Of a stretch of 16,254 bases of DNA, positions 2,114-16,254 are shown piece after piece (position 1 is the first letter of the stretch; every line of letters begins with the position of its first letter). Position numbers and translations under genes: made by a program. The notes under the pieces are model-generated. The model did not search any database. It saw only the letters and a program-made list of their open reading frames with translations, and was not told where the DNA came from. The DNA comes from Gammaproteobacteria bacterium (GTDB lineage Bacteria; Pseudomonadota; Gammaproteobacteria; Xanthomonadales; Xanthomonadaceae): assembly GCA_024642445.1 (NCBI GenBank), contig JAHEBG010000003.1:1-16254 (forward strand), read 5' to 3'.

Positions 2114-2167
2114 AAACAGCTTATCTCCCTGATAAATCGCTACTTTTCAGCACGAATGTGCCGCCCC

Positions 2168-2183: not shown

Positions 2184-2198
2184 TTTATGGTTTTAAAA

Positions 2199-2214: not shown

Positions 2215-2222
2215 TTCCTAAT

Positions 2223-2259
2223 GGGTACATTACCCGTGTTAAAACCGGGTGTCAACACC
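2223..2259. repeat. Cluster of overlapping inverted repeats between nrdJ and degQ
   Basis: Three overlapping dyads are visible. GGGTA(2223-2227)-CAT-TACCC(2231-2235) is a short hairpin or palindrome. ACCCG(2232-2236) pairs with CGGGT(2246-2250). GGTGT(2248-2252)-CA-ACACC(2255-2259) forms a 12-bp near-palindrome. In RNA they would exclude one another, and as DNA the last could be a dimeric operator. The rest of the 302-bp gap (2114-2415) holds the NrdR boxes and, near degQ, an AT-rich patch with TATACA at 2365-2370 but no convincing -35. I recognise no regulator for these dyads. Confidence 0.4.
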
Positions 2260-2415
2260 AAATCTGCCGTAAGAATCTTGTTCATAATCCCTTAACGGTC
2301 AGATGGATAGACTGCTTTTACTGGCGTGAAACCGTGCGTGAATCCGCGCTTTTTTTCGCTTTGTTATACACTTCCGCCAACGGCATACTGCCCGAACGAC
2401 CCTGAAGGACCTCGT

Positions 2416-3819
2416 ATGACCTCTCGATTGCGCTTAATGGCATTTGCCACCCTGTGTGCCGCAACCGGTGCCTTGGCTGCTGGCCTGTATTTCACCCAGA
2501 AAACGGCGCAGCCGGCCAAAGCCGAGCCCATACCAGACTGGGGAATTCCCGCAGCGCAAGCCAGCCCGCCGGCCGGACAAACCCTGCCGACGCTGGCGCC
2601 AATGCTGGCAAAAGTCACACCATCGGTAGTGAATATCTACACTAAACAACGGGTTCGGGTGAACAATCCGATTGCCGACTTCTTCGGCGGCGGGCGAATT
2701 CCGCAGGAACGCATTTCGCAATCGCTGGGTTCGGGCGTGATTGTGGATGCCGCGCGCGGCCTGATTCTGACTAACAACCATGTGGTCGAAGGCGCCGATG
2801 AAGTCTCAGTCAGCTTGTCCGATGGCCGCACCTTCGAAGCGCAGCCCATAGGCTCCGATCCGGATACCGACATCGCCGTTATCCGCATTTCGGCTAAAAA
2901 CCTGGTGGCGTTGCCGGTGGCCGACTCCAACAAATTGCGGGTCGGCGATTATGTGGTAGCGGTTGGCAATCCGTTTGGCTTAGGTCAGACGGTCACCTCC
3001 GGCATCGTCTCGGCGGTAGGCCGAAGTGGCCTGCAAGGCCTGGGCTATCAGAATTTCATTCAAACCGATGCCTCGATCAATCCGGGAAATTCCGGCGGCG
3101 CTTTGGTCAATCTCAACGGCGAATTGGTTGGCATCAATGTCGCCAGCTTCAACCCGCGCGGCAGCGCGGCTGGCAATATCGGTTTGGGCTTCGCCATACC
3201 TTCCTCATTGGCCAAAGAAATCATGCGGCAGTTGATGGCCTACGGTGAAGTACGTCGTGGCACCCTCGGCTTGGATGCCGAAACGGCACTGAACCCGAAC
3301 GACCCGCTGGGCAAGGGCGCACGGGTGACCCGTATCTACCGCGGCAGCCCGGCGGAAGTCTCGGGCATTCGCCCGGGCGATGTCATCGTGTCGGCCAATG
3401 GCCAGCGCATAGACAGCAGTGACGCCTTGAGCAATATGGAAGGCTTGCTGCCATTGGGTGCGCCGGTACGTCTTGAACTGTTGCGCGACGGACAACGCCT
3501 GAGTATCAGTGCGCAACTGAAAGCTTCGCCGAAGGAACTGCAGGCCGGCGAACTGGATGCGCGATTACAGGGTGCGGTATTGATCGATACGCCGGATCGC
3601 TACCGTCAAACCGGAATCCGTGGCGTTATCGTCAGTAAAGTTGCGACCGGCAGCAGAGCCGAACGCAATGGCCTGGAAGCCGGCGATCGCATCCTTGTAG
3701 TCAATCGTCAATCCATCGTTGATTTAGCCGGCCTTCGAGCGCAACTTTCGCAAAACCCTCGCATATTGGAGTTAGGTCTGGCGCGGGGCAGGCAGTCGGG
3801 CTATCTGCAAATGCGTTAA
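2416..3819 (+). CDS. degQ: Do/DegQ-family periplasmic serine endoprotease (HtrA type)
   Basis: This is an envelope quality-control protease and chaperone (peptidase family S1C) that degrades misfolded periplasmic proteins. The 467-residue product has an N-terminal hydrophobic export or anchor segment (residues 7-26), a Pro/Ala-rich linker, a trypsin-like domain (about 60-245) and two PDZ domains (about 255-360 and 375-465). The catalytic triad is intact: His122 in TNNHVV, Asp152 in DTDIAVI, Ser226 in NPGNSGGAL. The ATG at 2416 was chosen because GAAGGA lies 6 nt upstream and a signal sequence follows directly. An in-frame ATG at 2326 would add 30 residues ahead of the signal and has no good ribosome site. 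The short loop after residue 80 fits DegQ better than DegP. Unlike the mucD copy found beside rpoE in many relatives, this gene has no sigma-E or rse neighbours here. Confidence 0.9.
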   Translation: MTSRLRLMAFATLCAATGALAAGLYFTQKTAQPAKAEPIPDWGIPAAQASPPAGQTLPTLAPMLAKVTPSVVNIYTKQRVRVNNPIADFFGGGRIPQERISQSLGSGVIVDAARGLILTNNHVVEGADEVSVSLSDGRTFEAQPIGSDPDTDIAVIRISAKNLVALPVADSNKLRVGDYVVAVGNPFGLGQTVTSGIVSAVGRSGLQGLGYQNFIQTDASINPGNSGGALVNLNGELVGINVASFNPRGSAAGNIGLGFAIPSSLAKEIMRQLMAYGEVRRGTLGLDAETALNPNDPLGKGARVTRIYRGSPAEVSGIRPGDVIVSANGQRIDSSDALSNMEGLLPLGAPVRLELLRDGQRLSISAQLKASPKELQAGELDARLQGAVLIDTPDRYRQTGIRGVIVSKVATGSRAERNGLEAGDRILVVNRQSIVDLAGLRAQLSQNPRILELGLARGRQSGYLQMR

Positions 3820-3854
3820 AAACACGCGGTGTGCACGTCAAGGCGCGGTATCCT

Positions 3855-4556
3855 ATGGTGATGAAAGCCATTAAAGCCATCAGCCTCGATTTAGACGACA
3901 CCCTTTGGCCGATCTGGCCGATAATCGAGCGCGCGGAACAGCGTCTGCACGATTTTCTTGAACTGCACGCACCGGCGACGGCGCGCCAATTTCCCATTCC
4001 GGCCATGCGCACGGTGCGCGAACACATCGCGCAGGCACATCCGGAACTGGCCCACGACTTCACCGCACAACGCAAACTTTCGTTGCAGCATGCCTTTCAT
4101 CTTTCCGGTGTTAGCGACGACCTGATTGAACCGGCATTCGATGCCTTTTTCCAAGCGCGCAATGATGTCGAATTTTATGACGACTGCCTGCCTGCATTGG
4201 AACGCCTGAGCCAACGCTTTCCATTGCTGGGCCTGACCAACGGCAATGCCGATCTGGACCGCACCGGCATTGGCCATTTTTTCGTTGGCTGCGTGTCTGC
4301 AAAATCGGTAGGTACGGCAAAACCGCACGGCCCTATTTTCGAAGCCGCCTGCCAGCAACTGCAATTGCAGCCGTCTCAAATCCTGCATGTGGGCGATGAC
4401 CCCTGGCTGGACGTTCAAGGCGCGCAGTGGGCAGGATTGCACTCGGCCTGGATAAACCGGAACAATGCGGTCTGGCCGGACGAGCTGAAATGTGCCACCG
4501 TTTCCGTGACCACACTGGCTGAACTGGCCGACTATTTGGATACCCTACACACATGA
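3855..4556 (+). CDS. HAD-superfamily (subfamily IA) hydrolase, YigB-like phosphatase
   Basis: A 233-residue cytoplasmic phosphatase of the haloacid dehalogenase superfamily. Its substrate cannot be read from sequence. The closest familiar type is YigB, which hydrolyses FMN and small phosphate esters in E. coli. Motif I is DLDDT (nucleophile Asp12, general acid Asp14), motif II is LTNGN (Thr128), motif III is the Lys of TAKPHGP (Lys156), and motif IV is HVGDD followed by Asp186. A helical cap lies between motif I and about residue 115. Among the possible starts (GTG 3831, ATG 3855, ATG 3861) I chose 3855 because AAGGCG sits 9 nt upstream. It begins 35 bp after degQ and overlaps the next gene by 4 nt (ATGA), so it is cotranslated with the aminopeptidase. 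Confidence 0.87.
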   Translation: MVMKAIKAISLDLDDTLWPIWPIIERAEQRLHDFLELHAPATARQFPIPAMRTVREHIAQAHPELAHDFTAQRKLSLQHAFHLSGVSDDLIEPAFDAFFQARNDVEFYDDCLPALERLSQRFPLLGLTNGNADLDRTGIGHFFVGCVSAKSVGTAKPHGPIFEAACQQLQLQPSQILHVGDDPWLDVQGAQWAGLHSAWINRNNAVWPDELKCATVSVTTLAELADYLDTLHT

Positions 4557-5944
4557 CTACTCGGCAAGCACCGCAAGGCATAAGCTTTACGCGAGACCCG
4601 CAATCAAAAGCATTGAAGTTGGTGTCCAGCACGCAGTACAGCGAATGGCTCACAGCACAATCCGAAGCGATGCGGCAGTGGCTGCAGAGCCAGAAATTCC
4701 AGGGAAAGCCCAGCCAGTTCTGTTTACTGCCCGAACACGGCGAAGCCGGGTATTCGGTGCTGGCCATTGTCGATGAAGACTCGCCATACAGCGTGGCGCA
4801 TTTGCCGAAATTGCTGCCGAAATGCCACTACCACCGCTGCCCTGATGCGAACGCTGCGATCAGCAACGACCACCTGATGCTGGGTTGGGGTTTGGGCGCC
4901 TACCGCTTCGAGCGCTACCTGAGCGTGTCGGACTCGGCACAGTTGCATGCCGAAGCCTTCAGCCCCGAAGCCATGGCGGTATTGGAAGCCAGCCTGCAGG
5001 TGCGCAACCTGATCAACACCCCCACCGAAGACATGGGTCCGGAACAATTGCAACACGCCGCGCAGGCTTTGGCAGATCGCTTCAATGCGCAAATGTCGGT
5101 GGTGATCGGCGATGACCTATTGACGCAGAACTATCCCACCGTGCATGCCGTAGGCCGCGCATCACACCGCGCGCCGCGCGTCATTCGTCTGGATTGGGGC
5201 AATGCTGCACATCCGCAGCTGGTGCTATGCGGCAAAGGCGTGTGTTTCGATACCGGCGGTTTGGACATGAAGGCTGCAGCCGGCATGCGCAATATGAAAA
5301 AAGACATGGGCGGTGCTGCTCATGCGCTGGGCTTGGCACAACTGATTATGCAAAATGCTTTGCCGGTAAGGCTTACGGTACTGATTGCCGCTGTGGAAAA
5401 CAGCGTATCCGGCAACGCGTTCCGGCCCGGCGATATCATACGCACACGTCAAGGCCTTAGCGTTGAAATCCACAATACCGATGCCGAAGGCCGCTTGGTG
5501 TTGTGCGATCTGTTGGCCGAAGCCAGCGCCATGAAGCCCGACCTCATCATGGATTTCGCTACGCTCACCGGCGCCGCGCGCATCGCCCTGGGCCCGGATC
5601 TTCCGGTGCTGTACTGCAACCGCGACGGCTTGGCCGAAGACTATATGGCGGCTGGGCGCGAACAACACGACCCTATTTGGCGTTTGCCGCTGTGGCAACC
5701 GTATTTGAGCTACCTGAAATCGACGATAGCTGATCTATCGAATGCCAGCACCGGAACCCACGCCGGCAGTGTAACGGCCGCTTTGTTCCTTCAGTGCTTT
5801 GTAAAACCTGACATCGACTGGACACATATGGACGTGTACAGTTGGAACGACAGCGAGCGTCCGGGCCGGCCGGCCGGCGGCGAGGCCCAGGGTTTGCGCG
5901 CGGCCTTCGCACTGTTGAAGAAAAAATATGACGACCGGCACTAA
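4553..5944 (+). CDS. M17 leucyl aminopeptidase family protein
   Basis: A 463-residue cytosolic di-metal aminopeptidase that removes N-terminal residues from peptides and takes part in peptide turnover. All seven conserved M17 metal and catalytic residues are present with the same spacing as in E. coli PepA: Lys228, Asp233, Lys240, Asp251, Asp310, Glu312 and Arg314. They lie in GKGVCFDTGG, the LDMK segment, KKDMGG and NTDAEGR. The N-terminal domain (about 1-150) is shorter and diverged compared with PepA, as in PepB and other short family members, so the exact specificity and the symbol pepA or pepB are left open. It starts on the ATGA overlap with the HAD gene; in its reading frame there is no better upstream start. 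Its stop is 54 bp before the exporter operon. Confidence 0.92.
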   Translation: MTTRQAPQGISFTRDPQSKALKLVSSTQYSEWLTAQSEAMRQWLQSQKFQGKPSQFCLLPEHGEAGYSVLAIVDEDSPYSVAHLPKLLPKCHYHRCPDANAAISNDHLMLGWGLGAYRFERYLSVSDSAQLHAEAFSPEAMAVLEASLQVRNLINTPTEDMGPEQLQHAAQALADRFNAQMSVVIGDDLLTQNYPTVHAVGRASHRAPRVIRLDWGNAAHPQLVLCGKGVCFDTGGLDMKAAAGMRNMKKDMGGAAHALGLAQLIMQNALPVRLTVLIAAVENSVSGNAFRPGDIIRTRQGLSVEIHNTDAEGRLVLCDLLAEASAMKPDLIMDFATLTGAARIALGPDLPVLYCNRDGLAEDYMAAGREQHDPIWRLPLWQPYLSYLKSTIADLSNASTGTHAGSVTAALFLQCFVKPDIDWTHMDVYSWNDSERPGRPAGGEAQGLRAAFALLKKKYDDRH

Positions 5945-5998
5945 GCTTTGTATTACCGAATTGCCATACTCTTTATTAATACGATCTAGGATTTCCTT

Positions 5999-7210
5999 AT
6001 GAACCGCCCCGATGACCTGCTGAACGCCTTAAAAATCCAACGCAAGCCCCTTGCCGAAAAAAAGCGCCGCTGGCCATGGATCATACTGGTAATTATTGGC
6101 ATAGGTGTATTGTTCGCACTCACCCGCAGCAAGCCAATGGTGGTGGAAACAGTGGCCCCGCGCTCTGCTGCCAGCAGCGGCCCGGCCACGGTACTGGACG
6201 CTTCCGGTTATGTCACGGCACGCCGGATTGCCACGGTATCCTCGAAAGTCACCGGTAAGGTCAAAGAAGTCTATATCGAAGAAGGCCAGCGGGTTAGCGA
6301 GGGCGAAATTCTGGCACGCCTGGATCCACTCGATGTTGAAGCCCAGCGCCAGCTTTCGAAAGCGCAGCTGGCCTCGAGCCAATCGCAATTGGCTGAAGCG
6401 CGCGCGCAACTGCAATTGGCCGAAAGCACCCTCAGCCGCAACCGCGATTTGGCCAGCCAGCAATTGGTGTCCCGACAAGCCCTGGATACCGCTAAAGCCG
6501 ACCGGGATGCCCGCGCTGCACGTCTTGCCAGCTTGCAGAAGGCTGTCAGTGTCAGCCAGGAGCAACTCAGCGTTGCCAACTTGAGTGTGGACAACACCGT
6601 CATCCGTGCACCGTTCGACGGCGTCATCATTGCCAAAGCTGCGCAGCCTGGAGAAATGATTTCGCCGATTTCGGCGGGCGGCGGCTCGATCCGTACCGGT
6701 ATTGGTACGTTGGTTGATATGGACTCGCTAGAGGTGCAGGTTGATGTCAACGAAGCCTACATCGGGCGCGTCACTCCGGAAATGCCGATTGAAGCCGTTC
6801 TCAACGCCTACCCGGACTGGAAAATTCCGGGCGCAGTGATTGCCATCATTCCAACCGCTGACCGCTCCAAAGCCACGGTAAAAGTGCGGGTTGCGCTCGA
6901 TAACAAAGATCCGCGCATTGTTCCCGATATGGGCGTTCGGGTGAGCTTTCTGGAAAAACGCGATGCCGACAAGCCGCTAACCGGCATGCTGATTGCCAAT
7001 ACCGCCGTGATTGAAGATGCCGGAAAATCCTACGTGTTCCTGCTTCGTGAAGACAAGGCCGTGCGCACCGAAATCACCGTGGCCGAGCGCAACGACAGCG
7101 ACAGCCGGGTTACCCGTGGTCTGGCTGCCAGCGATGCAGTCATCAACAACCCGGACAAAGCCCTGACAGACGGCGTTGCCGTTCGCCTGAAAGATCCGAC
7201 GGAGAAATAA
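5999..7210 (+). CDS. HlyD/MacA-type periplasmic adaptor (membrane fusion protein) of an ABC exporter
   Basis: A 403-residue inner-membrane-anchored adaptor that would couple the ABC transporter encoded downstream to an outer-membrane channel or a periplasmic substrate. It has a basic cytoplasmic tail, one membrane span (about 25-42), the first half of a biotinyl-lipoyl barrel (about 70-110, with TGKVKEVYIEEGQRV), an Ala/Gln/Leu-rich alpha-helical hairpin (about 112-195), the second lipoyl half (RAPFDGVI, about 202-222) and beta-barrel and membrane-proximal domains after it. The ATG at 5999 has AGGA 7 nt upstream. The preceding 54 bp are AT-rich (5945-5998) and could hold a promoter, but I see no clear -35/-10 pair. 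No TolC-like gene is in the window. The substrate is unknown. Confidence 0.88.
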   Translation: MNRPDDLLNALKIQRKPLAEKKRRWPWIILVIIGIGVLFALTRSKPMVVETVAPRSAASSGPATVLDASGYVTARRIATVSSKVTGKVKEVYIEEGQRVSEGEILARLDPLDVEAQRQLSKAQLASSQSQLAEARAQLQLAESTLSRNRDLASQQLVSRQALDTAKADRDARAARLASLQKAVSVSQEQLSVANLSVDNTVIRAPFDGVIIAKAAQPGEMISPISAGGGSIRTGIGTLVDMDSLEVQVDVNEAYIGRVTPEMPIEAVLNAYPDWKIPGAVIAIIPTADRSKATVKVRVALDNKDPRIVPDMGVRVSFLEKRDADKPLTGMLIANTAVIEDAGKSYVFLLREDKAVRTEITVAERNDSDSRVTRGLAASDAVINNPDKALTDGVAVRLKDPTEK

Positions 7211-7212
7211 GC

Positions 7213-7917
7213 GTGAGCGCTGACACTTCCCTTTTTCCTTTGGTGGAAATCCGGCAACTGACCAAAGCCTATGTGCGTGGCAAGCAGGTGTTGGAAGTGC
7301 TGCATGGCATCAATCTGGATATTCCCGAAGGCGATTTCGTGGCGCTGATGGGACCATCCGGCTCAGGTAAAACCACGCTGCTCAATCTCATCGGCGGTAT
7401 CGACTCGCCCACCGGCGGTCTATTGAAAATCGATGGCCAGCGTATTGATGATTTGCCCGGCGATGAACTGGCAGCATGGCGTGCCAATACCGTAGGCTTC
7501 ATTTTCCAGAGTTACAACCTAATGCCTGTGCTGAGCGCACAGAAAAACGTGGAGTTGCCGTTGCTACTCACCGACATGAGTGCCGGCGAGCGTCGCGATC
7601 GTGCCCGCATCGCACTGCAACTGGTGGGCATTCTTGACCGCGCCGGCCACAAGCCGAATGAACTTTCCGGCGGTCAGCAGCAGCGCGTTGCCATCGCCCG
7701 GGCTTTGGTTTCCGACCCGCGTATTTTGATCTGTGACGAGCCCACCGGCGATCTTGACCGCAAGACCGCCGACGAGGTACTGACCTTGCTGCAACAGTTG
7801 AACCGTGAATTCGGCAAAACCATTGTGATGGTGACCCATGACCCGAAGGCTGCCGAATATGCACGGCGCACTGTGCACTTAGATAAAGGCACCTTGGTTA
7901 CTGAGGCAGCACACTAA
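7213..7917 (+). CDS. ABC transporter ATPase, LolD/MacB type
   Basis: A 234-residue ATP-binding subunit that powers the exporter from the cytoplasmic face. Walker A is GPSGSGKTT (47-55), the Q-loop Gln is about residue 99, the signature LSGGQ is at 151-155, Walker B ILICDEPTGD carries catalytic Glu176, and the H-loop is His209 in MVTHD. The length and the motif context place it in the LolD/MacB/FtsE group of mechanotransmission ABC systems. The start is a GTG at 7213 with GGAGA about 8 nt upstream, only 2 nt after the adaptor stop. Unlike MacB itself, the ATPase is not fused to its permease. Confidence 0.94.
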   Translation: MSADTSLFPLVEIRQLTKAYVRGKQVLEVLHGINLDIPEGDFVALMGPSGSGKTTLLNLIGGIDSPTGGLLKIDGQRIDDLPGDELAAWRANTVGFIFQSYNLMPVLSAQKNVELPLLLTDMSAGERRDRARIALQLVGILDRAGHKPNELSGGQQQRVAIARALVSDPRILICDEPTGDLDRKTADEVLTLLQQLNREFGKTIVMVTHDPKAAEYARRTVHLDKGTLVTEAAH

Positions 7918-7920
7918 GCC

Positions 7921-9180
7921 ATGCTGAAATACGTCAACCTTGTGCTCTCCGGTCTGCTGCGCAAAAAATTGCGTACCACGCTAACCTTGCTGTCGTTGGC
8001 GGCGGCGTTCACCTTGCTGGGTTTGTTACAGGCGGTCAACTCGTTGTTCTCAGGCGCTGCGGATTTTCTCGGCGCAAACCGTTTGATATCGCAAGCCAGC
8101 ACCAGCTTCACTCAACCTTTGCCGATGCGGCTGCTGCCGCAGATCGAAGCGGTCCCGGGCGTGCAAGCGGTTTCGCACTCACAGTTCTTCGGCGGCGTGT
8201 ACGGCGAAGGGCGCAATTTCTTCCCACAGTTCGCGGTCAACCCACTGCGTTTGCGTCAGACCTATCCGGAATGGGTGATGCCGGAGGACAACTGGCGTAA
8301 CTTCACCTCCACCCAGGACAGCGCCATCGTGGGCCGGCAGCTGGCGGATCAATTCGGCTGGAAAGTGGGCGACACCGTGCCGTTGAACAGCTTCATCTGG
8401 TCGAAAGCCAACGGCTCGCGCACATGGGAGTGGCGCATTGCCGGCATTTTCGACGGCAAAGACGAAGAGTGGCAAAAACGGGCAGCTTTGATGTATCTGA
8501 ACTACGGGCAATTTGATGAAGGCCGTAATCCCGGGGCGCGCGGCTTGGCCGGCGTATTTGTGGTGCGGGTAGACAACTCCTCCGAGTCGGAACGTATCGC
8601 CAGCGCCATCGACGCCAAATTCAAGAATTCCTCGGATGAAACCAAGACCCAGAGTGAGCAGGAATTCCAGCTCGGCTTCATCCGGCAACTCGGCGATATC
8701 GGTTTAATCGTCAACCTAATTACCGGCGCGGTTTTCTTCTCAATATTGTTTTTAACCGGCGTAGCCATGAGCCAGGCGGTGCGTGAACGCATCCCGGAAC
8801 TGGCGGTGTTGAAATGCCTGGGCTTCAAAGACGGCACGGTCATGTGGCTGGTATTGGCGGAGGCCTTTGCCCTGTGCCTAATTGGTGCCGGCATTGGCAT
8901 GGGCCTGGCCAGCGTCTTGATGACACTGCCCTTCATTCAAAACACCATCCCGGTGCAAGCCGATGCGTTTGTCTGGGTCATTGCGGCACTCAGTGTTCTG
9001 GTACTGACACTGTTGGTGGGTGTGCCTCCCGCCTACACCGCACAACGCCTGAAAATCGTCGATGCACTGGCCGGCCGCACCGATGACAGCTTTCTGGAAG
9101 CGATTCTGCGCAAGGCGGTTCGCGCAGCACAATGGCTGAGCCGACTGATCACCGGAAAATCCGCGGAGATTCCGAATTGA
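7921..9180 (+). CDS. FtsX/MacB-like ABC permease, first of two
   Basis: A 419-residue membrane subunit. The topology is that of a type VII permease: one N-terminal span (about 20-40), a large periplasmic domain (about 45-255, MacB_PCD type), then three C-terminal spans (about 261-287, 308-333 and 350-372) with the short cytoplasmic motif ERIPELAVLKCLGFKD between the first two, typical of FtsX-domain coupling helices. It starts 3 nt after the ATPase stop. The only purine-rich site, GAGG, is 14 nt upstream, so translation is probably coupled. It is co-transcribed with the adaptor, the ATPase and a second, non-identical permease, suggesting a heterodimeric membrane core. Confidence 0.9.
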   Translation: MLKYVNLVLSGLLRKKLRTTLTLLSLAAAFTLLGLLQAVNSLFSGAADFLGANRLISQASTSFTQPLPMRLLPQIEAVPGVQAVSHSQFFGGVYGEGRNFFPQFAVNPLRLRQTYPEWVMPEDNWRNFTSTQDSAIVGRQLADQFGWKVGDTVPLNSFIWSKANGSRTWEWRIAGIFDGKDEEWQKRAALMYLNYGQFDEGRNPGARGLAGVFVVRVDNSSESERIASAIDAKFKNSSDETKTQSEQEFQLGFIRQLGDIGLIVNLITGAVFFSILFLTGVAMSQAVRERIPELAVLKCLGFKDGTVMWLVLAEAFALCLIGAGIGMGLASVLMTLPFIQNTIPVQADAFVWVIAALSVLVLTLLVGVPPAYTAQRLKIVDALAGRTDDSFLEAILRKAVRAAQWLSRLITGKSAEIPN

Positions 9181-10355
9181 GCCGTTTAACCCAGATCCGT
9201 GAGATTACCCGAATGAATCTGGCGTCCATACCCGAGCGCCTGGGGCCAAGCCTGGTCATCGTCATTGGCATCGCCGGCGTGGTCGGGGTATTGGTGGCCT
9301 TGCTGTCGATGTCGACCGGCTTGCAGCAGACCTTAGGCAGTAATGGACGAACCGATCAGGCCGTCATCACCCGTGGCGGTGCCAACGGTGAGTTGGCCAG
9401 CTTCCTGACCATCGGCTCGGCCACGTTGGTTAAACAAGACCCCGCCATCGCCCGAAATGCCGATGGCATCGCGTTGGCCAGTGGCGAACTGATTGTGATT
9501 ACCGAAGTGCCACGCCCAGGACAAAAAACCGGGGCCAATGTGACCCTGCGCGGCGTTGAGCCGATCGGCATGCGTATTCGCTCCGATTTCCGGATTACCG
9601 AAGGCCGCGTATTCAGGCCCGGCGTGCAGGAGTTGATTGTAGGTAAAGGCGCCGCCAGTCAGTTCAGCGGGCTTGAGGTAGGCCGAAGCCTACGCTTCCG
9701 CGGCTCGACATGGACCGTGGTCGGACATTTTGAAAGCGGTGGCTCCTACGATTCCGAGCTATGGAGTGATGTTCAAACCGTTCAGAGCGCATGGCGTCGT
9801 GCCGGTGTGTCATCGGTGTTGGCGCAGATGAAAAGCGAAATGCTGTTGCCGGCAATGGCGAAGCGAATGAAAGAAGATCCGCAGTTGGATGTGGAAGCCA
9901 AAAGCCAGTTGGAATTTTACCGTGGCCAAAGCGGCAACCTCACCGCCACCATCGGCGTCTTGGCCGGCATCGTGGCCTTGATCATGGCCGTAGGTGCCAC
10001 ATTCGGTGCGCTCAATACCATGTACTCGGCCGTGTCGGCACGTACACGCGAGATCGGCACATTGCGCGCCCTGGGTTTCGGGGCATTGCCGGTTGTAGCA
10101 TCGGTGATGGCCGAATCTCTTTTGCTGAGTCTCTCCGGTGGCGTGCTTGGTGCACTGTTTGCCTATGTGGTTTTCAACGGCTATGCCGTATCCACGCTGG
10201 GTGGCGGCTTCACCCAAGTGGCTTTCCAGTTTGCTGTCACCCCGGGACTGGTAGTCATCGGTCTGGCATTGGCTGTCGGAATCGGCCTCATTGGCGGGCT
10301 TGCGCCAGCGCTGCGCGCTGCACGCCTGCCGGTTACCGCAGCATTGCGCGGCTAA
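9177..10355 (+). CDS. FtsX/MacB-like ABC permease, second of two (TTG start)
   Basis: A 392-residue permease with the same layout as its neighbour: N-terminal span (about 24-44), periplasmic domain (about 50-255), three C-terminal spans, and the coupling motif TREIGTLRALGFG. I chose the TTG at 9177 because it overlaps the upstream stop by 4 nt (TTGA), has GGAG 8 nt upstream, and gives an N-terminus (SRLTQIREITRMNL) just ahead of the first span, as usual in this family. The in-frame ATG at 9132 would overlap the previous gene by 49 nt and add a hydrophilic tail read from that gene's C-terminus. It is the last gene of the exporter operon. Confidence 0.88.
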   Translation: MSRLTQIREITRMNLASIPERLGPSLVIVIGIAGVVGVLVALLSMSTGLQQTLGSNGRTDQAVITRGGANGELASFLTIGSATLVKQDPAIARNADGIALASGELIVITEVPRPGQKTGANVTLRGVEPIGMRIRSDFRITEGRVFRPGVQELIVGKGAASQFSGLEVGRSLRFRGSTWTVVGHFESGGSYDSELWSDVQTVQSAWRRAGVSSVLAQMKSEMLLPAMAKRMKEDPQLDVEAKSQLEFYRGQSGNLTATIGVLAGIVALIMAVGATFGALNTMYSAVSARTREIGTLRALGFGALPVVASVMAESLLLSLSGGVLGALFAYVVFNGYAVSTLGGGFTQVAFQFAVTPGLVVIGLALAVGIGLIGGLAPALRAARLPVTAALRG

Positions 10356-10357
10356 TA

Positions 10358-10378
10358 AAGCCGTCAGCTTTCCGGCTT
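10358..10378 (+). terminator. Possible weak hairpin after exporter operon
   Basis: AAGCCG (10358-10363) and CGGCTT (10373-10378) form a 6-bp stem with a 9-nt loop directly behind the permease stop. There is no T-tract after it, so an intrinsic terminator is doubtful. It could be an mRNA 3'-end stabiliser or chance. Confidence 0.25.
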
Positions 10379-10386
10379 GGCTCTGG

Positions 10387-10395
10387 TGTTATGAT
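10387..10395 (+). promoter_or_regulatory. Extended -10 promoter for the GGDEF/EAL gene
   Basis: TGTTATGAT carries an extended -10 (TGn followed by TATGAT, 5 of 6 to TATAAT). The region at -35 (around 10367-10373, CTTTCC-like) is poor, as allowed for extended -10 promoters. Transcription would begin near 10402, about 38 nt before the chosen start codon. This separates the signalling gene from the exporter operon. Confidence 0.5.
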
Positions 10396-10439
10396 GTTTA
10401 TTGTATTCATCGTGGAGCATGCCTTACCAGGCATACGCA

Positions 10440-12755
10440 ATGGCGAGCTTGCGGAAACAATCCTTACTGATGGCGGCATTGACCATGGTGGTTTTCATGG
10501 TCATGGGTACCGCCATTTCCAACTATTGGATGGAACGCAGCCTGCGCGAATTTGAACTGCGCGATGTGCAGCACTCGCTGAGTCAAACCGAACAGCTGTT
10601 GGGTAGCCAGATTTTAAATCTGCGCAAACAAGCCCGGGATTATGCGGTATGGGACACCACCTACGAATTCATGCATAACGGTGATCCCGGCTATGCCTTT
10701 AATAACTATTCCGATGAAATCTTCGGGAATCTGGACTCGGATTTCGTCCTATTGCTAAACAATCAAGGCAGACTGACACTTAAACTGTCCCAGTCACGCT
10801 TTAGTGACCGCAGCAACACCCCAGGCATTTCGATATCCGAGTCCTTGCGTACACAAATGCAGCCTGTTGCCCAGCGTAGCGGAACGCAATTCACCGGCGG
10901 CTTGGTTTGGATTGACGGTCGAGCGTTTTTGTATGGTCTGAGCAGCATTCTCGACAACGAGGCCAATTCCACACCGCGGGGTATTTTGGTATTTGCACGC
11001 GAGCTGAGCGTGGAGCGCGTGTCTGTTTTGCGCAGCCTGGCACGTGAAAACTTCACCCTCAGACCTCTAAGCCCGCATTCGCCGCTGGTCCAACCGATGA
11101 TTCAGGGCGATGCCATTAAAACTGCGCTGATTTTCAAGGACACCAATGGGCAGCCTACGGCAGAATTGGCTTTGGACAAACAACGTCCACTGCTTAGTCA
11201 AATCTCGACGCTTAAAACCATTATCCTTCTGAACGCCCTAATCATCATCCTGTTGTCCTTGGGATCCGTGTACTTTCTGTTCGATCGGATTGTATTGCGT
11301 AAAATTGAAATTCTGGTGCAGTCCATCAGTAACACCCGACTCAATGCCGGCAAGAACTCAAGAGTTACGCTGCAGGGAAACAGTGATGTCGATCGTATCG
11401 CCACGGAAGTCAATCACCTTCTGGACGATCTGCGCTACAGCTATGTACAGCTCGAATACGATGCATTGCATGACCATATGACCGGGCTTGGAAACCGTAA
11501 GAAATTGCTGCAGGAACTGGACAACATCTGCCGTGAACTTAAGTCAGGGTCTGGGCGGCGCTCGGCCATACTGTTGATGGACCTGGATGCTTTCAAGGAC
11601 ATCAATGACCTGCACGGCCACATGGCGGGCGATCACGTGCTGAAAACCGTAGCGGCCCGCCTGAACGGTTATGCCAGCAAAGACCAAGTCGCGATTCGCA
11701 TCGGTGGCGATGAATTCGCGTTCATCGTTCCGGAGTTCAAGGAAAAAACACCTACCCACTACGCCGCACATATCCTTTCTCTGGTGACGCAACCGATTTC
11801 CTTCGAAAACCACCTACTGCATGTGCAGGCTTGTATCGGCATCGTCATCATCGACAAGAGTTTGGGCGCCAATCTAAGACCGTTGGATATTCTTCGCAAA
11901 GCCGATATCGCCATGTACGCCTGTAAACAGCAAGACAAAAACGGTTACCTGCTGTTCCATGAGGAAATCGAGCTCAAGCAGAGCGAACGCAAGAAATTGG
12001 AATCCGATTTGTCCTTCATGATTGCCACGGAAACCTTCGATCTGGTATTGCAGCCCATCGTCAATGTTAGCAACGGCCAACCGTATGCGCTTGAGGCGCT
12101 GTGCCGGTGGCGTCACCCGGATCTCGGCATGATATCGCCCGATGTCTTTATCCCCATAGCGGAAAGCACCAAGCAGATACCAAAACTGGATAAGGCGATG
12201 ATCAAGCGCGCCTGCAAGGAATTGGCCGTTCAGCGTCAACGCCACCCGGATTTGCTGCTCAGTGTCAATCTTTCCGCCATTACCCTGACCGAAGTGGATA
12301 TCGCCAGTTTCATATATGCCACACTGCACGAATACGGATTGCCACGTCATGCATTGATGCTGGAGATTACCGAGTCATCCTTGTCGTCCGATGAAGACCG
12401 TATGACCTCTGCCATCAGCGCGCTGATGGATCTCGATATTCAGATACTGATCGACGACTTCGGCACCGGCTACTCCTCACTTTCGCGCCTGAATTCTTTG
12501 CCGTTGGATTGCGTCAAGATCGACAAGAGTTTTCTTGATGCCTTAGATGACGGCGACCGATCCCTGTGCAGCATCATCATCAATATGGCACACAGCTTGC
12601 ATATGCAGGTTATTGCCGAAGGTGTGGAGACCCAGCGCCAGCTCGAGCTGCTCTCCGACATGGGCTGTGATTTCGTTCAAGGTTACTATTTGGCGCGACC
12701 GCTCGACATTCCGCAACTGAATGCGTACATGGACACATTCGCAGAGCCGGCCTGA
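10440..12755 (+). CDS. CHASE4-GGDEF-EAL membrane protein (cyclic di-GMP synthesis/turnover)
   Basis: A 771-residue inner-membrane sensor with two spans (about 9-28 and 258-281) enclosing a periplasmic CHASE4 domain (ARDYAVWDTTYEF at 65-77 is its hallmark), a short linker in HAMP position, a GGDEF domain (about 338-505) and an EAL domain (about 518-760). The diguanylate cyclase motif GGDEF (422-426) and metal Asp381 are intact. The inhibitory RxxD site is absent, replaced by S413-K-D-Q416. The phosphodiesterase residues are all present: Glu552 of EAL, Asn610, Glu642, Asp672/Asp673, Lys693, Glu727 and Gln747. Both activities are therefore possible. The start is uncertain: ATG 10440 has CAGG about 8 nt upstream, whereas ATG 10419 has GGAG only 1 nt away and a TTG at 10401 has no site. 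Confidence 0.92.
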   Translation: MASLRKQSLLMAALTMVVFMVMGTAISNYWMERSLREFELRDVQHSLSQTEQLLGSQILNLRKQARDYAVWDTTYEFMHNGDPGYAFNNYSDEIFGNLDSDFVLLLNNQGRLTLKLSQSRFSDRSNTPGISISESLRTQMQPVAQRSGTQFTGGLVWIDGRAFLYGLSSILDNEANSTPRGILVFARELSVERVSVLRSLARENFTLRPLSPHSPLVQPMIQGDAIKTALIFKDTNGQPTAELALDKQRPLLSQISTLKTIILLNALIIILLSLGSVYFLFDRIVLRKIEILVQSISNTRLNAGKNSRVTLQGNSDVDRIATEVNHLLDDLRYSYVQLEYDALHDHMTGLGNRKKLLQELDNICRELKSGSGRRSAILLMDLDAFKDINDLHGHMAGDHVLKTVAARLNGYASKDQVAIRIGGDEFAFIVPEFKEKTPTHYAAHILSLVTQPISFENHLLHVQACIGIVIIDKSLGANLRPLDILRKADIAMYACKQQDKNGYLLFHEEIELKQSERKKLESDLSFMIATETFDLVLQPIVNVSNGQPYALEALCRWRHPDLGMISPDVFIPIAESTKQIPKLDKAMIKRACKELAVQRQRHPDLLLSVNLSAITLTEVDIASFIYATLHEYGLPRHALMLEITESSLSSDEDRMTSAISALMDLDIQILIDDFGTGYSSLSRLNSLPLDCVKIDKSFLDALDDGDRSLCSIIINMAHSLHMQVIAEGVETQRQLELLSDMGCDFVQGYYLARPLDIPQLNAYMDTFAEPA

Positions 12756-12857
12756 TTGTGAACGGATGCCAACGGAACACGCCAAGCTGTCAACGAAACC
12801 CGCGGTGCTCCGTTATTCCCTAGACACGGCACCTTTCGCTGCCGCCTGGAGAACCCC

Positions 12858-13232
12858 ATGAAACACGTCATTCTCAAATCCCTGTTGTGCGCAACGGCTT
12901 TCTGTATAGCCAGTGGTGCGCAGGCCAACTCCCCACGTTCTGCGCATCTCGACCGCAAGGGCGATCGCATTGAACATCGCCTTGATGTCAAAGGCGACCG
13001 TATAAACCAGCGTCTGGATGCCCGCGGCCAGCACATCAATGCACGTCTCGATCGACGTGCGGCACTGGCTGCGGCAAATGGCAATTGGCAACGTGCGCGC
13101 CAGCTTGACCGCAAGGGCAACCGCATCGAACGCCATCTGGATCGCAAAGGCAATCGAATAGACCGTCATTTGGACCGGAAAGGCAAGCGTATCGACCGTC
13201 GCTTGGATCGCCGTGCCCGGCGCCTCGGCTGA
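12858..13232 (+). CDS. Small exported basic protein of 11-residue helical repeats
   Basis: I do not recognise a named function. The 124-residue product has a clear Sec signal peptide (MKHVILKSLLC to GAQA, cleavage expected after residue 23). The mature part consists almost entirely of 11-residue units of pattern LDRKGxRIxxR, starting at Leu31, 42, 53, 64, 83, 94, 105 and 116, with a 19-residue unit (64-82) that breaks the register. It is extremely rich in Arg, Asp and Lys, has no mature Cys, and is predicted to be fully helical. Leu and Ile recur at positions 1 and 8 of each hendecad, giving a thin hydrophobic stripe on a charged rod. ATG 12858 has GGAG 6 nt upstream. The gene lies 102 bp after the GGDEF/EAL gene and 33 bp before the sigma factor, and may belong to the latter's operon or be its target. 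Confidence 0.85.
   Translation: MKHVILKSLLCATAFCIASGAQANSPRSAHLDRKGDRIEHRLDVKGDRINQRLDARGQHINARLDRRAALAAANGNWQRARQLDRKGNRIERHLDRKGNRIDRHLDRKGKRIDRRLDRRARRLG
12948..13229 (+). repeat. 33-bp coding tandem repeats (11-residue units)
   Basis: Seven complete-to-partial 33-bp units plus one longer unit encode the LDRKGxRIxxR hendecads. The units differ at many third codon positions (Leu as ctc, ctt, ctg or ttg; Lys as aag or aaa; Asp as gac or gat) while the protein pattern is kept. This points to an old array under protein-level selection rather than a recent slippage expansion. The unit at about 13047-13103 is the 19-residue interruption. Confidence 0.85.
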
Positions 13233-13265
13233 ATAACCGCCAAGTGGAAACGGTAATGCGAGCAT

Positions 13266-13793
13266 ATGACTGATAACGCCATGGCACAGTTTCTGGCATC
13301 GGTTGAACAGAAAGCTTTTCGCATGGCAATGTTTGCTGTGCGAAATCGCGACGATGCCTTGGACATTGTGCAGGACGCCATGTTTAAACTGGTGCAACGC
13401 TACAGCGGTCATGATGCTGCCGAGTGGCCACCCTTGTTTTTTCGGATTCTGCACCACCGTATTACCGATCAGCATCGCCGTAATACCTGGGCGAGCTGGC
13501 TTTACCCCAAACGCAATGCGGCTGAAGACGATAACGGCATACCCGATATTGCCGATCCCGGGCAACTGCCACAGGACGAGCTATTGCATCAAGGCCGTGC
13601 CATGTCGCGCCTGCAGAAGGCATTGCAAGAATTGCCGCTACGGCAACAACAGGCGTATCTTCTGCGCCACTGGCAGGGGCTGGATGTGAAGTCTACAGCC
13701 ATTGCCATGTCCTGTTCGGAAGGCAGCGTTAAAACCCACCTGTCGCGGGCACTGGCGGCATTGAAGAACGAACTCGCGGAGGACTGGCCATGA
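13266..13793 (+). CDS. ECF-family RNA polymerase sigma factor
   Basis: A 175-residue sigma-70 family protein with only regions 2 and 4. Region 2 is at about 15-75 (AFRMAMFAVRNRDDALDIVQDAMF carries the core-binding 2.1-2.2 helix). Region 4 is at about 115-172, with the helix-turn-helix STAIAMSCSEGSVKTHLSRALAALK. The linker is Asp/Pro-rich. It would direct transcription of a small envelope- or stress-related regulon. The gene is followed with a 4-nt overlap by a single-pass membrane protein and then a DUF3106 gene, an order I recall from other proteobacteria. The ATG at 13266 fits the usual N-terminus, but its ribosome site is weak (GCGAG 3 nt upstream). I found no convincing autoregulatory ECF promoter upstream. 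Confidence 0.9.
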   Translation: MTDNAMAQFLASVEQKAFRMAMFAVRNRDDALDIVQDAMFKLVQRYSGHDAAEWPPLFFRILHHRITDQHRRNTWASWLYPKRNAAEDDNGIPDIADPGQLPQDELLHQGRAMSRLQKALQELPLRQQQAYLLRHWQGLDVKSTAIAMSCSEGSVKTHLSRALAALKNELAEDWP

Positions 13794-14218
13794 ACACCCA
13801 TGACCCTAACGAACATCGCCTTATCGAACAGATAAATGCCCTGCTCGATGCAAACAGAGCGAATACCGACGAGCGCAAGGCATTGCAACTGGCCCGATCA
13901 CGGGCACTGCTGACACAACCGAAAAGGGGAGCGCCGTTGCCATGGATGGCATTTGCGCTGTCAGCAGCATTTGCTACGGTAATTGTGGTTAATTTGCCAG
14001 GCAAACACCCGATTGTGGCCAAACAGGCCATCACCCAAAGCAAGCCCCCTACGGCTTCCGTCTCCCCTGCCAACAACAATCCCGTCAGTACAAAATCAGC
14101 AACCTCTGCCACCTCAGCACTGGACTTGGATCTTATTGAAAATATGGAGTTGTATGAAGATGCCGAATTCTATCAATGGTTATCGGAGCAATCCGCACAA
14201 GGAGCACATGATGCATAA
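13790..14218 (+). CDS. DUF3619-like single-pass membrane protein, probable anti-sigma factor
   Basis: A 142-residue protein with a charged helical cytoplasmic N-terminus (1-48, with DERKALQLARSRAL), one membrane span (about 50-69) and a Ser/Thr/Pro/Asn-rich periplasmic linker ending in an acidic motif (LDLIENMELYEDAEFYQWL at about 113-131). The acidic FYQWL end resembles that of DUF3619 proteins. It lacks the HxxxCxxC zinc motif of ZAS anti-sigma factors and has no Cys at all. The gene starts on the sigma factor stop (ATGA) with GGAGG 7 nt upstream, so the two products are made in a coupled way. The anti-sigma role is inferred from topology and position, not from sequence identity to a proven one. 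Confidence 0.8.
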   Translation: MNTHDPNEHRLIEQINALLDANRANTDERKALQLARSRALLTQPKRGAPLPWMAFALSAAFATVIVVNLPGKHPIVAKQAITQSKPPTASVSPANNNPVSTKSATSATSALDLDLIENMELYEDAEFYQWLSEQSAQGAHDA

Positions 14219-14678
14219 ATTCATTCTTACCGTAGCCTTGGGTATGGCAATGCCCGTGGCTTTTGCCGCCGAAGGCCCGGTGCCTTGGCAACAACTGAGC
14301 GCCGAACAGCAAAAGACCTTGGAACCGCTGAAGGACCGCTGGTCCGAGATGCCGGCAGAGCGCCAGCAACGCCTGCTGCGTAATGCCGAACGCTGGCAGA
14401 AAATGAGTCCCGAACAACGCGAGCGCCTGCAAAAAAATCGTCAGCGCCTGCAAGAATTAACCCCGGAACAACGGCAGCGCCTGCGCCAACGCCAGCAGAA
14501 CGTCAGAAACATGACCCCGGAACAGCGTCAACGCATGCGCCGCGCCTTCGAGAACTTCCGTACCATGTCACCCGAACAGCGTGCCGAGGCACGGAAAAAA
14601 TTCCAGGCGATGAGCCCGGAGCAACGCCGGGAATTCATGCAAAAACGCCGGCAAGAGGCGGAAAAATCCAAGGACTAA
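14211..14678 (+). CDS. Exported DUF3106 protein with 18-residue (M/L)(S/T)PEQR repeats
   Basis: A 155-residue protein with a Sec signal peptide (cleavage after AFA, residue 19) and a highly charged helical mature part with Met/Leu-Ser/Thr-Pro-Glu-Gln-Arg motifs at residues 29, 47, 65, 83, 101 and 119 (exactly 18 apart) and 134. The family is DUF3106, without known function. The LTPEQR-type motif recalls the LTxxQ motif of the periplasmic chaperones Spy and CpxP, though this is similarity of motif, not shown homology. Start choice: AAGGAG lies 6 nt before ATG 14211, while ATG 14208 would leave only 3 nt. It overlaps the membrane protein gene by 8 nt. There is no Cys and a single His (in the signal peptide), so a classic metal site is unlikely. 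Confidence 0.87.
   Translation: MHKFILTVALGMAMPVAFAAEGPVPWQQLSAEQQKTLEPLKDRWSEMPAERQQRLLRNAERWQKMSPEQRERLQKNRQRLQELTPEQRQRLRQRQQNVRNMTPEQRQRMRRAFENFRTMSPEQRAEARKKFQAMSPEQRREFMQKRRQEAEKSKD
14295..14627 (+). repeat. 54-bp coding repeats (18-residue units) in the DUF3106 gene
   Basis: Six motif copies lie at exactly 54-bp steps from Leu29, followed by a seventh after 45 bp. Eighteen residues correspond to five alpha-helical turns, so each PEQR motif falls on the same face of a continuous helix. Nucleotide identity between units is only partial. Confidence 0.85.
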
Positions 14679-14682
14679 GCTC

Positions 14683-15555
14683 TCAGCGCAGTCGTTTGCC
14701 CAGTGTTACCATGCCGATGCTGGCCAGAATTAAAACCATGGCCAGCACGGTATGCGAGTTCATCGGCTCACCCAGCAACAACACGCCCAGCAGCAAGGCA
14801 ATCGGTGGGTTGACGTAAGCGTAACTGGTGGCCAGCGCCGGGCGCACATGCTTGATCAGCCAGACAAAGGCCGAATACGCGATGATCGAGCCAAACAGTG
14901 CCAAGTAGAGCATAGCTGCTGTGGCCTGCAATGTCGGCGCATGATCAAAGCGCTCGCCCAATAAAAGTCCGATAAACAACGACAGTACGCCACCAATTGC
15001 CATTTGCCATGCTGACAATGCCATTGACCCCGGCAGATCGCGACCCTTACTCCACATCGAGCCCCAGGCCCAGCCCAGCGGTGCAGCCAATACGCACAAT
15101 AAGCCAACAGTAGACACCCGCAATTCACTGCCCAGATTCAACCAGATTACGCCCAGAAACCCCAACACAAGACCTGTCCATTCCAGGCGGCTGGGGTGAT
15201 AGCCGCGAAGCGCCGAAAACACACCGGCCCATAACGGCATAGCCGCTACACCGATGGCCACCACGCCACTGGACACGGTCTGCTCGGCCACATTGACAAA
15301 GGCATTGCAGAGCACCGTCATCACCAAAGCCAGAACAAACAATGACGGCCACTGTGCCCTGGTGGGCAACGGCGTTTTTTTATAGGCCAGCCAAGACAAC
15401 ATCAAGCCACCGGCAATCAACATGCGAGAGCTGGTCAGAAGAAACGGCGGATAATCCGGCAGTGCCAATTTGATGGCGAAGTAGGTAGAACCCCAGATTA
15501 AATAAACCGCCAATAAGGCGGCCAGGGTATGGCTGGTTTTGACAGGGGAATTCAT
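14683..15555 (-). CDS. yedA: EamA/DMT-family inner-membrane transporter, YedA-like
   Basis: A 290-residue member of the drug/metabolite transporter superfamily with ten predicted membrane spans in two EamA repeats. Similarity to E. coli YedA is clear by eye: WGSTYFAIKLAL near the N-terminus, the VAEQTVSSGVVAI-type segment, YLALFGSIIAYSA and ALATSYAYVNP near the C-terminus. The substrate is unknown, and related proteins export amino acids or toxic metabolites. I chose ATG 15555 because it overlaps the stop of ada by 4 nt (ATGA). An in-frame ATG at 15570 has GGAAG 4 nt upstream and would add five residues, and the frame is open to 15660. It converges on the DUF3106 gene with just 4 bp between the stops and no visible terminator. 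Confidence 0.9.
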   Translation of the reverse strand: MNSPVKTSHTLAALLAVYLIWGSTYFAIKLALPDYPPFLLTSSRMLIAGGLMLSWLAYKKTPLPTRAQWPSLFVLALVMTVLCNAFVNVAEQTVSSGVVAIGVAAMPLWAGVFSALRGYHPSRLEWTGLVLGFLGVIWLNLGSELRVSTVGLLCVLAAPLGWAWGSMWSKGRDLPGSMALSAWQMAIGGVLSLFIGLLLGERFDHAPTLQATAAMLYLALFGSIIAYSAFVWLIKHVRPALATSYAYVNPPIALLLGVLLLGEPMNSHTVLAMVLILASIGMVTLGKRLR

Positions 15556-16254
15556 GGGCCAGTATCGCATGCGGCTTCCGAATGCAGAAGCGTTTGCTTC
15601 AGAGGCAATCCCCAACGGTAACCGCCCAATGAGCCGTCGCCGCGGACGATTCGATGGCACGGCACCAATACCGCAACCCGGTTGCCGGCACAGGCACGTG
15701 CCACGGCACGTGCCGCCTTGGGCATATTCAATTCTGCAGCCAATTCAGCATAGCTGCGTGTCTGGCCTTTGGGCAGACGCATCAAAGCCTGCCAGACACG
15801 ATGTTGAAAAGCCGTACCAATAAGTTCAACATCAACTGTGACCGATTGCCCGGCGAGCACTGCCGCTACGGCACGCACTTTGTCGGCAATCAGGGCTTCG
15901 CCCTCATGTACGGCATTGAGTGTGGCGTTGGGAAACTCGCGTTGCAATTCAGCCAGAAGCTCTGCTTTGGAATCAGCCAATGCCACGGCACAGATACCCC
16001 GGTCAGTGGCAGCAATCAAAGCCTTGCCCAGCACCGTCGTACTAATCGTCCAATGAAGAGTAAGGCCCTCGCCGCCTTTACGGTAATGCGCCGGAAGCAT
16101 GCCCAGTTTCGCCGCGCCGTTCTCGTACACGCGCGAACTGGAACCGAAACCGCTGTCGACCCAAGCCTGAGTGACATCGGCCCCTTGGCGAAGCCGACGC
16201 TTCAGGCTACCGATTTTCAGCTGCGCTGCGTACTCGGCAGGACTGAGGGCGAAC
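15552..16254 (-). CDS. ada: Ada: AraC-type regulator fused to O6-methylguanine-DNA methyltransferase, 5' end outside window
   Basis: The visible 233 residues hold the end of an AraC-type helix-turn-helix region (the stretch from SPAEYAAQLK to GFGSSSRVYENGAAKLGM) and a complete C-terminal methyltransferase. The acceptor Cys is in VPCHRIVR (codon 15657-15659), followed by GDGSLGGYRWG; the conserved helix ARAVARACAGNR precedes it. Ada transfers methyl groups from O6-methylguanine to this Cys and, through an N-terminal Zn-bound Cys, senses methylphosphotriesters and activates transcription of the adaptive response. That N-terminal domain lies beyond the right edge, so its presence cannot be confirmed. 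A GTG at 16130 is internal, since the frame stays open to the edge. Translation is coupled to the transporter gene downstream. Confidence 0.94.
   Translation of the reverse strand, partial: FALSPAEYAAQLKIGSLKRRLRQGADVTQAWVDSGFGSSSRVYENGAAKLGMLPAHYRKGGEGLTLHWTISTTVLGKALIAATDRGICAVALADSKAELLAELQREFPNATLNAVHEGEALIADKVRAVAAVLAGQSVTVDVELIGTAFQHRVWQALMRLPKGQTRSYAELAAELNMPKAARAVARACAGNRVAVLVPCHRIVRGDGSLGGYRWGLPLKQTLLHSEAACDTGP

Follow-up and report, generated by a model that had tools for sequence, protein, structure and literature searches.

A probable self-regulated envelope-stress operon of the SigAb-AabA-AabB kind in a member of the Xanthomonadaceae

Introduction

What do an extracytoplasmic function (ECF) sigma factor, a small membrane protein and two exported repeat proteins do together when their genes are packed one behind the other? 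The question is raised by a locus in contig JAHEBG010000003.1 of the gammaproteobacterial assembly GCA_024642445.1 (Xanthomonadaceae), of which positions 1 to 16,254 were analysed (hereafter the window). An initial annotation, made from the letters of the sequence, had described the four genes at positions 12858 to 14678 as a candidate envelope-sensing module. We consider it likely that they form a self-regulated envelope-stress operon of the SigAb-AabA-AabB kind, working by the mechanism that we propose below. The four genes are:

12858..13232, + strand: exported basic repeat protein, first gene (124 aa; list of open reading frames)
13266..13793, + strand: ECF sigma factor of the NF006550/PRK09047 family, SigAb-type (175 aa; family score, tree, match to Acinetobacter baumannii)
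13790..14218, + strand: single-pass membrane protein, predicted anti-sigma factor, DUF3619-related (142 aa; position, conservation, DUF3619 in relatives, topology in the AlphaFold2 (AF2) model, segment swap)
14211..14678, + strand: exported DUF3106 protein, AabB homologue with 18-residue helical repeats (155 aa; PF11304, AF2)

The list of open reading frames has all four genes in the places given by the initial annotation. The stop of the sigma gene and the start of the membrane protein gene overlap by 4 nt (13790-13793), the membrane protein and DUF3106 genes overlap by 8 nt (14211-14218; 11 nt with the ATG at 14208 as start), and the repeat gene ends 33 nt before the sigma start. Export of the repeat and DUF3106 proteins was judged by eye from their N-terminal sequences.

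Results and discussion

The sigma factor belongs to the family of SigAb

The label of ECF sigma factor was borne out, with a score of 207 bits against NF006550/PRK09047 (cut-off 173). The window sigma is 36% identical to a sigma factor of A. baumannii (E 4e-26, protein search), which is also its top match among the 20 matches listed in plasmid records, some of them chromosome-sized (110 bits, the others at most 62). In a FastTree phylogeny of 170 sigmas, the A. baumannii protein nests within the window sigma family (a clade of 135, support 81), and 24 other ECF sigmas, all from one order and known only as ECF sigmas, fall outside a 146-member group.

The A. baumannii locus encodes this sigma (236.7 bits for NF006550), then a small transmembrane protein, then a DUF3106 protein (PF11304, 38.1 bits; net charge -1), and carries GTCAAC-N17-CGTTA at L306:2337. 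The names SigAb, AabA and AabB are absent from the record; we identified the three proteins by gene order, overlap, size (106 residues read here for the second protein, 107 reported for AabA in PMC12153292) and promoter. According to Bacon et al. 2025 (PMC12153292), aabA and aabB are overlapping genes behind sigAb, both with anti-sigma activity, and the operon is autoregulated. The cytoplasmic part of AabA is active by itself, AabB alone, produced in E. coli, lowered sigma activity, and copper is the signal in Acinetobacter. Mutagenesis gave a SigAb promoter with a -35 element GTCAAC and a -10 element CGTT, with a native spacer of 17 and nearly equal activity at 16. The same paper calls SigAb Acinetobacter-specific and contrasts it with RpoE and a few other ECF sigmas; its identity to E. 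coli RpoE is 18%, with a different promoter. The scores and tree above instead place SigAb as a single branch within a far larger family.

The sigma, membrane protein and DUF3106 genes form a conserved module

Conservation was assessed in two sets. The first, the 80 named loci, comprises the best 80 of 405 relatives from named genomes scanned by sigma, and so represents best matches and not a random draw. The second is an even sample of the class with 140 genomes, one per family except for two of the window's family. In each of the 80 named loci, a DUF3106 gene stands downstream of the sigma gene and on its strand. Position, combined with a lax threshold (E<=1) for a profile, gives a transmembrane protein in all 80; the profile was built from A1, an alignment of 27 proteins that includes relatives of the membrane protein.

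Pairing was strong in the class sample too. A co-occurrence analysis of sigma, DUF3619 and DUF3106 across genomes had been proposed in the initial annotation. A DUF3106 gene lies 399-800 bp downstream of 32 of the 33 NF006550 sigmas above the cut-off and also downstream of five of the seven sigmas scoring 103-168 bits. DUF3619 has 13 places at E<=0.001 (11 above the cut-off), each directly behind an NF006550 sigma, and 37 of the 40 DUF3106 places above the cut-off are paired with a sigma. That the neighbours stand together by chance, or as a loose functional grouping, could appeal to the three unpaired places of these 40; it is refuted by an odds ratio of ~650 for sigma and DUF3106 over the 140 genomes and by the conserved gene overlaps and promoter. 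The gene arrangement is far beyond chance.

Closer to the window, in a set of its own genome and 60 relatives, 47 of the 61 carry a DUF3106 match above the cut-off, and 28 of the best 30 DUF3106 places, the window's included, have a sigma and a transmembrane protein upstream. The two exceptions are L007, with no sigma before the contig end, and L028, with no sigma. As side observations, open frames of ~500 aa in the window's genus are second DUF3106 matches, and that of L028 has no family sigma within 3.3 kb. Locus L144 has DUF3106, a small acidic protein and the tail of the membrane protein but no recognised sigma; it is possibly a decayed or misassembled operon.

A promoter matching that of SigAb precedes the operon

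The predicted promoter lies upstream of the first gene:

12789..12815, + strand: predicted autoregulatory ECF promoter (-35 GTCAAC at 12789-12794, N16, -10 CGTTA at 12811-12815; 42 nt before the repeat gene)

This site fits the GTCAAC/CGTT promoter mapped by mutagenesis for SigAb (PMC12153292). A blind motif search of 79 regions upstream of sigma genes returned TCAAC-N16-CGTT in 44 of them and in none of five shuffled sets. The pattern GTCAAC-N16/17-CGTT occurs within 600 bp upstream of the sigma gene in 63 of the 80 named loci (spacer 16 in 53, spacer 17 in 10), compared with 0/80 on the reverse strand and 2/80 and 1/80 in downstream controls. Twenty family loci around known operons were also picked by hand; 19 of them contain the sigma and all 19 carry the site, six (G002, G003, G010, G015, G020, G021) having been chosen after the site had already been seen and 13 not. 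Because the promoter sits 42 nt before the repeat gene in the window, all four genes probably belong to a single operon that regulates itself. The proposal that sigma, membrane protein and exported DUF3106 protein make up one module is supported, and the repeat gene belongs to it, the conserved promoter being 5' of that gene.

The repeat protein (124 aa, mature charge about +18) is built of 11-residue LDRKGxRIxxR repeats. A homologue precedes the sigma gene in seven of the 20 hand-picked family loci, with the promoter 33-54 nt before the start chosen here; L269 is a further case upstream of sigma, recognised by eye. In L262 a homologue unlinked to sigma, also recognised by eye, has a promoter site as well. 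Because the promoter precedes repeat genes, including the unlinked one in L262, the repeat protein is most likely a sigma-controlled output.

The membrane protein is a predicted anti-sigma factor with a conserved tail

As the initial annotation stated, the membrane protein has no Cys and one transmembrane segment (helix 51-67 in the AF2 model). The model has a mean predicted local distance difference test score (pLDDT) of 69 and a predicted template modelling score (pTM) of 0.29, so that its outline alone is reliable: N-terminal helices of fair confidence, the transmembrane helix, a loose linker and a helix at 110-138 bearing FYQWL. Two segments are relevant here:

13790..13933, + strand: predicted cytoplasmic sigma-binding segment, residues 1-48 (AF2 helices 6-25 and 28-41; RLxxAR-type consensus in relatives; function inferred from the homologue AabA)
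14117..14203, + strand: predicted periplasmic acidic helix, residues 110-138 (AF2 helix; FYQWL at 14168-14182)

Within the last 75 residues, 66 of the 80 named loci have a strict [FLM][YF]xW[LIVM] motif and the other 14 a near variant; shuffled tails gave at most four occurrences.

The designation as a DUF3619 protein stood in part. On its own, the window protein has no Pfam match at E<=1, and PF12279 (DUF3619, cut-off 22.2) has no match in it or anywhere in its genome, so a Pfam-level membership was rejected. Fifteen of the 27 A1 proteins match DUF3619 weakly (best E 1.5e-5), which supports a DUF3619 kinship through relatives and not through the protein's own score.

The best sequence evidence for the identity of the gene comes from a segment swap. 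In six genomes of two families, in an order other than the window's (L145 and L157-L161), the usual N-terminus of the membrane protein is replaced by a ZAS-like segment with HxxxCxxC; zf-HC2, scanned in five of these proteins (all except L159), is above the cut-off in L157. The same loci retain a FYxWL-type tail and a short DUF3106-like next gene, which Pfam places above the cut-off in G083 and our own profile alone finds in the others, at E 1e-6 to 1e-11 or near. Because these loci replace the N-terminus yet keep the tail and the DUF3106-like gene, they support both an anti-sigma role of the membrane protein and a pairing of its tail with DUF3106. The earlier claim that the membrane protein is an anti-sigma factor is therefore supported indirectly, by the swap and by the experimentally studied homologue (PMC12153292). 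As a separate observation, the N-terminal segment of the anti-sigma protein is present as a tandem duplicate in L032, L034, L035 and L048, and the sigma frame of L035 is also broken by a stop.

The retention of tail and DUF3106 together through the swap bears on a rather improbable reading, in which DUF3106 has no role in control and is simply produced under the sigma factor, as a chaperone or scavenger in the periplasm. Its gene does lie within an autoregulated operon, as the repeat gene does, and the same promoter precedes other exported proteins, among them the L262 repeat protein and, recognised by eye, a Spy-like protein (L261) and an EF-hand repeat protein (L279). Apart from the swap, the near-strict pairing of sigma and DUF3106 in the class sample and the reported anti-sigma activity of AabB (PMC12153292) speak against it.

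The DUF3106 protein is a predicted helical repeat protein without detected CnrX or Spy kinship

The window DUF3106 protein scores 130.3 bits against PF11304 (gathering cut-off 24.3), and its AF2 model is an all-helical repeat with a mean pLDDT of 91.6. Across 79 aligned proteins it displays a Trp ladder with a spacing of 18, in which W44 is invariant and W26, W62 and W80 are present in at least 90%. That the family lacked an assigned function, as the initial annotation had it, is no longer wholly true: we identify AabB as a member, and anti-sigma activity is reported for AabB (PMC12153292). Within the set of papers searched, and with that set as its limit, neither DUF3619 nor DUF3106 is mentioned.

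The initial annotation had also drawn a parallel to CnrH-CnrY-CnrX with a Spy-like helical sensor. A kinship of DUF3106 with CnrX or Spy was not supported. At E<=1 the window protein matches neither PF13801 (Metal_resist, CnrX-type) nor PF07813 (LTXXQ, Spy/CpxP), and among 79 relatives the weak matches number three for Metal_resist (E<=0.01) and two for LTXXQ. A DUF3106 profile found no PDB sequence better than E 0.052. Foldseek found no PDB structure at E<=0.001 and two poor chains at E<=10, the only ones compared by VIA-align; such a negative carries little weight for helical repeats, and the fold may be shared with CnrX or Spy. As the family scans, the profile search and Foldseek gave no convincing match, the idea of a kinship was dropped. 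A CnrY-like way of working stays plausible, the model of AabA on SigAb being like that of CnrY on CnrH (PMC12153292).

It is very unlikely that the operon is a CnrH-CnrY-CnrX homologue that senses metal through a CnrX-type periplasmic sensor. That reading can draw on the AabA model, on the three Metal_resist matches and on weak matches of the CnrY model (PF17524) to two of the 27 A1 proteins (best 0.028); at E<=1 the window membrane protein does not match CnrY, its DUF3106 protein does not match Metal_resist, and the structural and PDB sequence searches are those given above.

The match of basic repeats to an acidic tail, likewise proposed from the window, is true in sign. The window DUF3106 protein has a net charge of +14, DUF3106 is positive in 79 of the 80 named loci, and the last 40 residues of the anti-sigma protein have a mean charge of -10.4 (range -16 to +4). 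The two charges do not covary over the 80 operons (rho -0.02), so a graded electrostatic covariation was rejected, and in A. baumannii the DUF3106 protein carries no basic net charge. Opposite charge of tail and DUF3106 is common, not defining.

Proposed mechanism

In the resting state, the sigma factor would be kept at the cytoplasmic face of the membrane by roughly the first 48 residues of the membrane protein. On the periplasmic side, the exported DUF3106 protein would engage the acidic helical tail and so keep the anti-sigma factor in its holding state. An envelope signal would alter the complex of DUF3106 and tail, upon which the anti-sigma factor would release the sigma factor or be cut. 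Free sigma factor would then transcribe from GTCAAC-N16-CGTTA, yielding the repeat protein as output, more sigma factor and, later, both brakes. Our sequence analysis provides the gene order, its conservation, the promoter, the tail motif, the segment swap and the family kinship with the A. baumannii operon. For the homologue, published work has shown the promoter bases, autoregulation and the anti-sigma activity of AabB and of AabA, in the latter with the cytoplasmic part by itself (PMC12153292). For this organism, we infer the binding of the tail by DUF3106, the signal, the release step and the function of the repeat protein.

Several observations weigh against the operon and mechanism proposed here. 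Lone sigmas without an adjoining anti-sigma or DUF3106 gene exist (L143, above the NF006550 cut-off, and L141 and L142, below it). No promoter match lies within 600 bp in 17 of the 80 named loci (one of them, L057, with almost no upstream sequence), and the aromatic motif of the tail is altered in 14. The A. baumannii membrane protein ends in EDLEMLMVL, without the aromatic motif; it has no BLAST match to the window-type membrane protein, and its match to the relatives' profile is marginal (E 0.007, 4.7 bits, in a search of three proteins). Among the five swap proteins scanned, zf-HC2 is below the cut-off in L158 and L161 and unmatched in L160 and L145. Lastly, the lowering of sigma activity by AabB alone in E. 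coli (PMC12153292) is unexplained by a simple model of tail holding.

This last result would fit DUF3106 as an RseB-like guard, not a sensor, that shields the tail from a periplasmic protease, the signal acting on the protease or on release of the guard. We regard this alternative as possible but doubtful. Overproduced AabB lowers sigma activity (PMC12153292) and the tail lies near the C-terminus and is predicted to be helical (AF2); the operon, by the list of open reading frames, is without a protease gene, and AabA is active through its cytoplasmic part by itself (PMC12153292).

A small exported acidic protein in relatives

A small exported acidic protein with the pattern DxELLEFLGxWE..DGxWxDP is encoded between the membrane protein and DUF3106 genes in 58 of the 80 named loci (e.g. 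L087:5137-5358 and L031:4859-5089), by a profile seeded from 30 of these same loci. The same profile finds it in 20 of 30 class loci (L111-L140) and in seven of another 30 (L001-L030), none of these being from the window's family, and does not find it at the window operon. Scans of five examples against Pfam and NCBIfam gave no match of note. The core of the protein resembles the anti-sigma tail: a local profile comparison aligns eight columns in register, with a probability of 0.9%, and in a global comparison the motifs are not aligned significantly. Mimicry of the tail by the small protein was therefore not borne out by profile comparisons as a sequence-supported result, and is retained as a hypothesis. 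On that footing we mention an extension of the proposed mechanism that we think unlikely to be correct, in which DUF3106 would be a periplasmic receptor for peptides whose Trp ladder grips the acidic DLEFYxWL helix, and the small acidic protein, where present, would compete as a free decoy and so set the sigma factor. In the window's family, no decoy is seen at the operon and some members, among them the window's own, have the exported 11-residue repeat protein instead.

Promoter sites elsewhere

A large regulon was considered and rejected: in the class search, exact sites are no commoner than a reversed-pattern control (26 vs 26 places), and per-genome control counts are of the same order as, or above, the real counts. 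For sites away from the sigma gene, position alone is informative. In seven of 20 loci picked by hand from 80-odd places, a MacA-like efflux adaptor gene (named by eye) has the motif 10-39 nt upstream. When the best MacA-like match was taken in 12 genomes, a perfect site preceded the gene in four, from four other genera (G027, G031, G034, G036), with two to three mismatches at best in G000 (the window's own), G001, G005, G006, G013, G014, G024 and G032. As a control, 38 of 2000 random windows of MacA-like loci hold a perfect site, some overlapping true sites. No promoter site precedes the adaptor gene that the window itself contains (L296).

The motif-bearing MacA-like loci (L220, L222-L227; L282, L283, L284, L286) come from several genera of the window's family. 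Other sites were noted before genes named by eye. The motif lies 5-8 nt before a serine-hydrolase-like gene in four genomes of the genus (L217-L219, L221; in L216 the nearest same-frame start is 158 nt off) and 56 nt before an isoaspartate methyltransferase-like gene in two (L228, L229). Genome G161 has strict sites before the Spy-like exported protein (L261) and before the EF-hand protein with RREDVRD repeats (L279), which precedes the sigma gene.

Surroundings and reach of the family

The gene set is bounded, because it is flanked upstream by a CHASE4-GGDEF-EAL gene and downstream by a convergent EamA transporter gene. A gene for an HtrA/Deg-like exported serine protease, named by eye, lies at 2326-3819 of the window, ~9 kb upstream of the operon. 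The locus of Arenimonas metalli (L096) matches six loci of the window's genus at 77-79% over 2.7-3.1 kb, and the genus is probably Arenimonas or close to it.

The stress pathway that was reported in 2025 as specific to Acinetobacter (PMC12153292) thus appears to be one member of a wider family. This family reaches about a quarter of the sampled families of the class, with the sigma in 33 and DUF3106 in 37 of the 140 genomes, the window's own included. Two DUF families gain a testable role, and annotators gain a promoter consensus in agreement with the experimentally mapped one. Named relatives such as Arenimonas, Microbulbifer or Pleionea are candidates in which to look for the signal and the release step left open in the Acinetobacter study.

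Comparison with known systems

The Spy/CpxP LTXXQ proteins resemble the window DUF3106 protein in being exported and helical with a repeated L-S/T-P-E-Q-R motif, and differ in family, as the scans above indicate. ZAS (zf-HC2) anti-sigma factors share the gene slot and the kind of tail in the six swap loci, where a ZAS-like N-terminus takes this place, whereas the window membrane protein lacks Cys and matches no zinc-finger model. In RpoE-RseA-RseB, a sigma factor, a membrane anti-sigma factor and a periplasmic partner form an autoregulated set; the window operon would have the same three components and autoregulation, but its predicted anti-sigma factor is shorter than 150 aa. CnrH-CnrY-CnrX of Cupriavidus metallidurans consists of a sigma factor, a short single-pass anti-sigma factor and an exported helical protein. 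The three-part logic is shared, and a CnrY-like contact has been modelled for the homologue AabA (PMC12153292); the difference is that the sequence and fold searches above did not link DUF3106 to CnrX and that CnrY matches are few and weak. SbrI-SbrR of P. aeruginosa, compared by its published description alone, was dropped as the closest system once SigAb fitted on four features.

SigAb-AabA-AabB remains the closest. The window operon differs from it in starting with a repeat gene and in having a FYQWL tail and a basic DUF3106 protein, in place of the DLEMLMVL tail and near-neutral third protein of A. baumannii. The two have in common the gene order with overlaps, an NF006550 sigma factor, a small single-pass protein, an exported DUF3106 protein, a GTCAAC-16/17-CGTT promoter and, by prediction in the window, an autoregulated operon.

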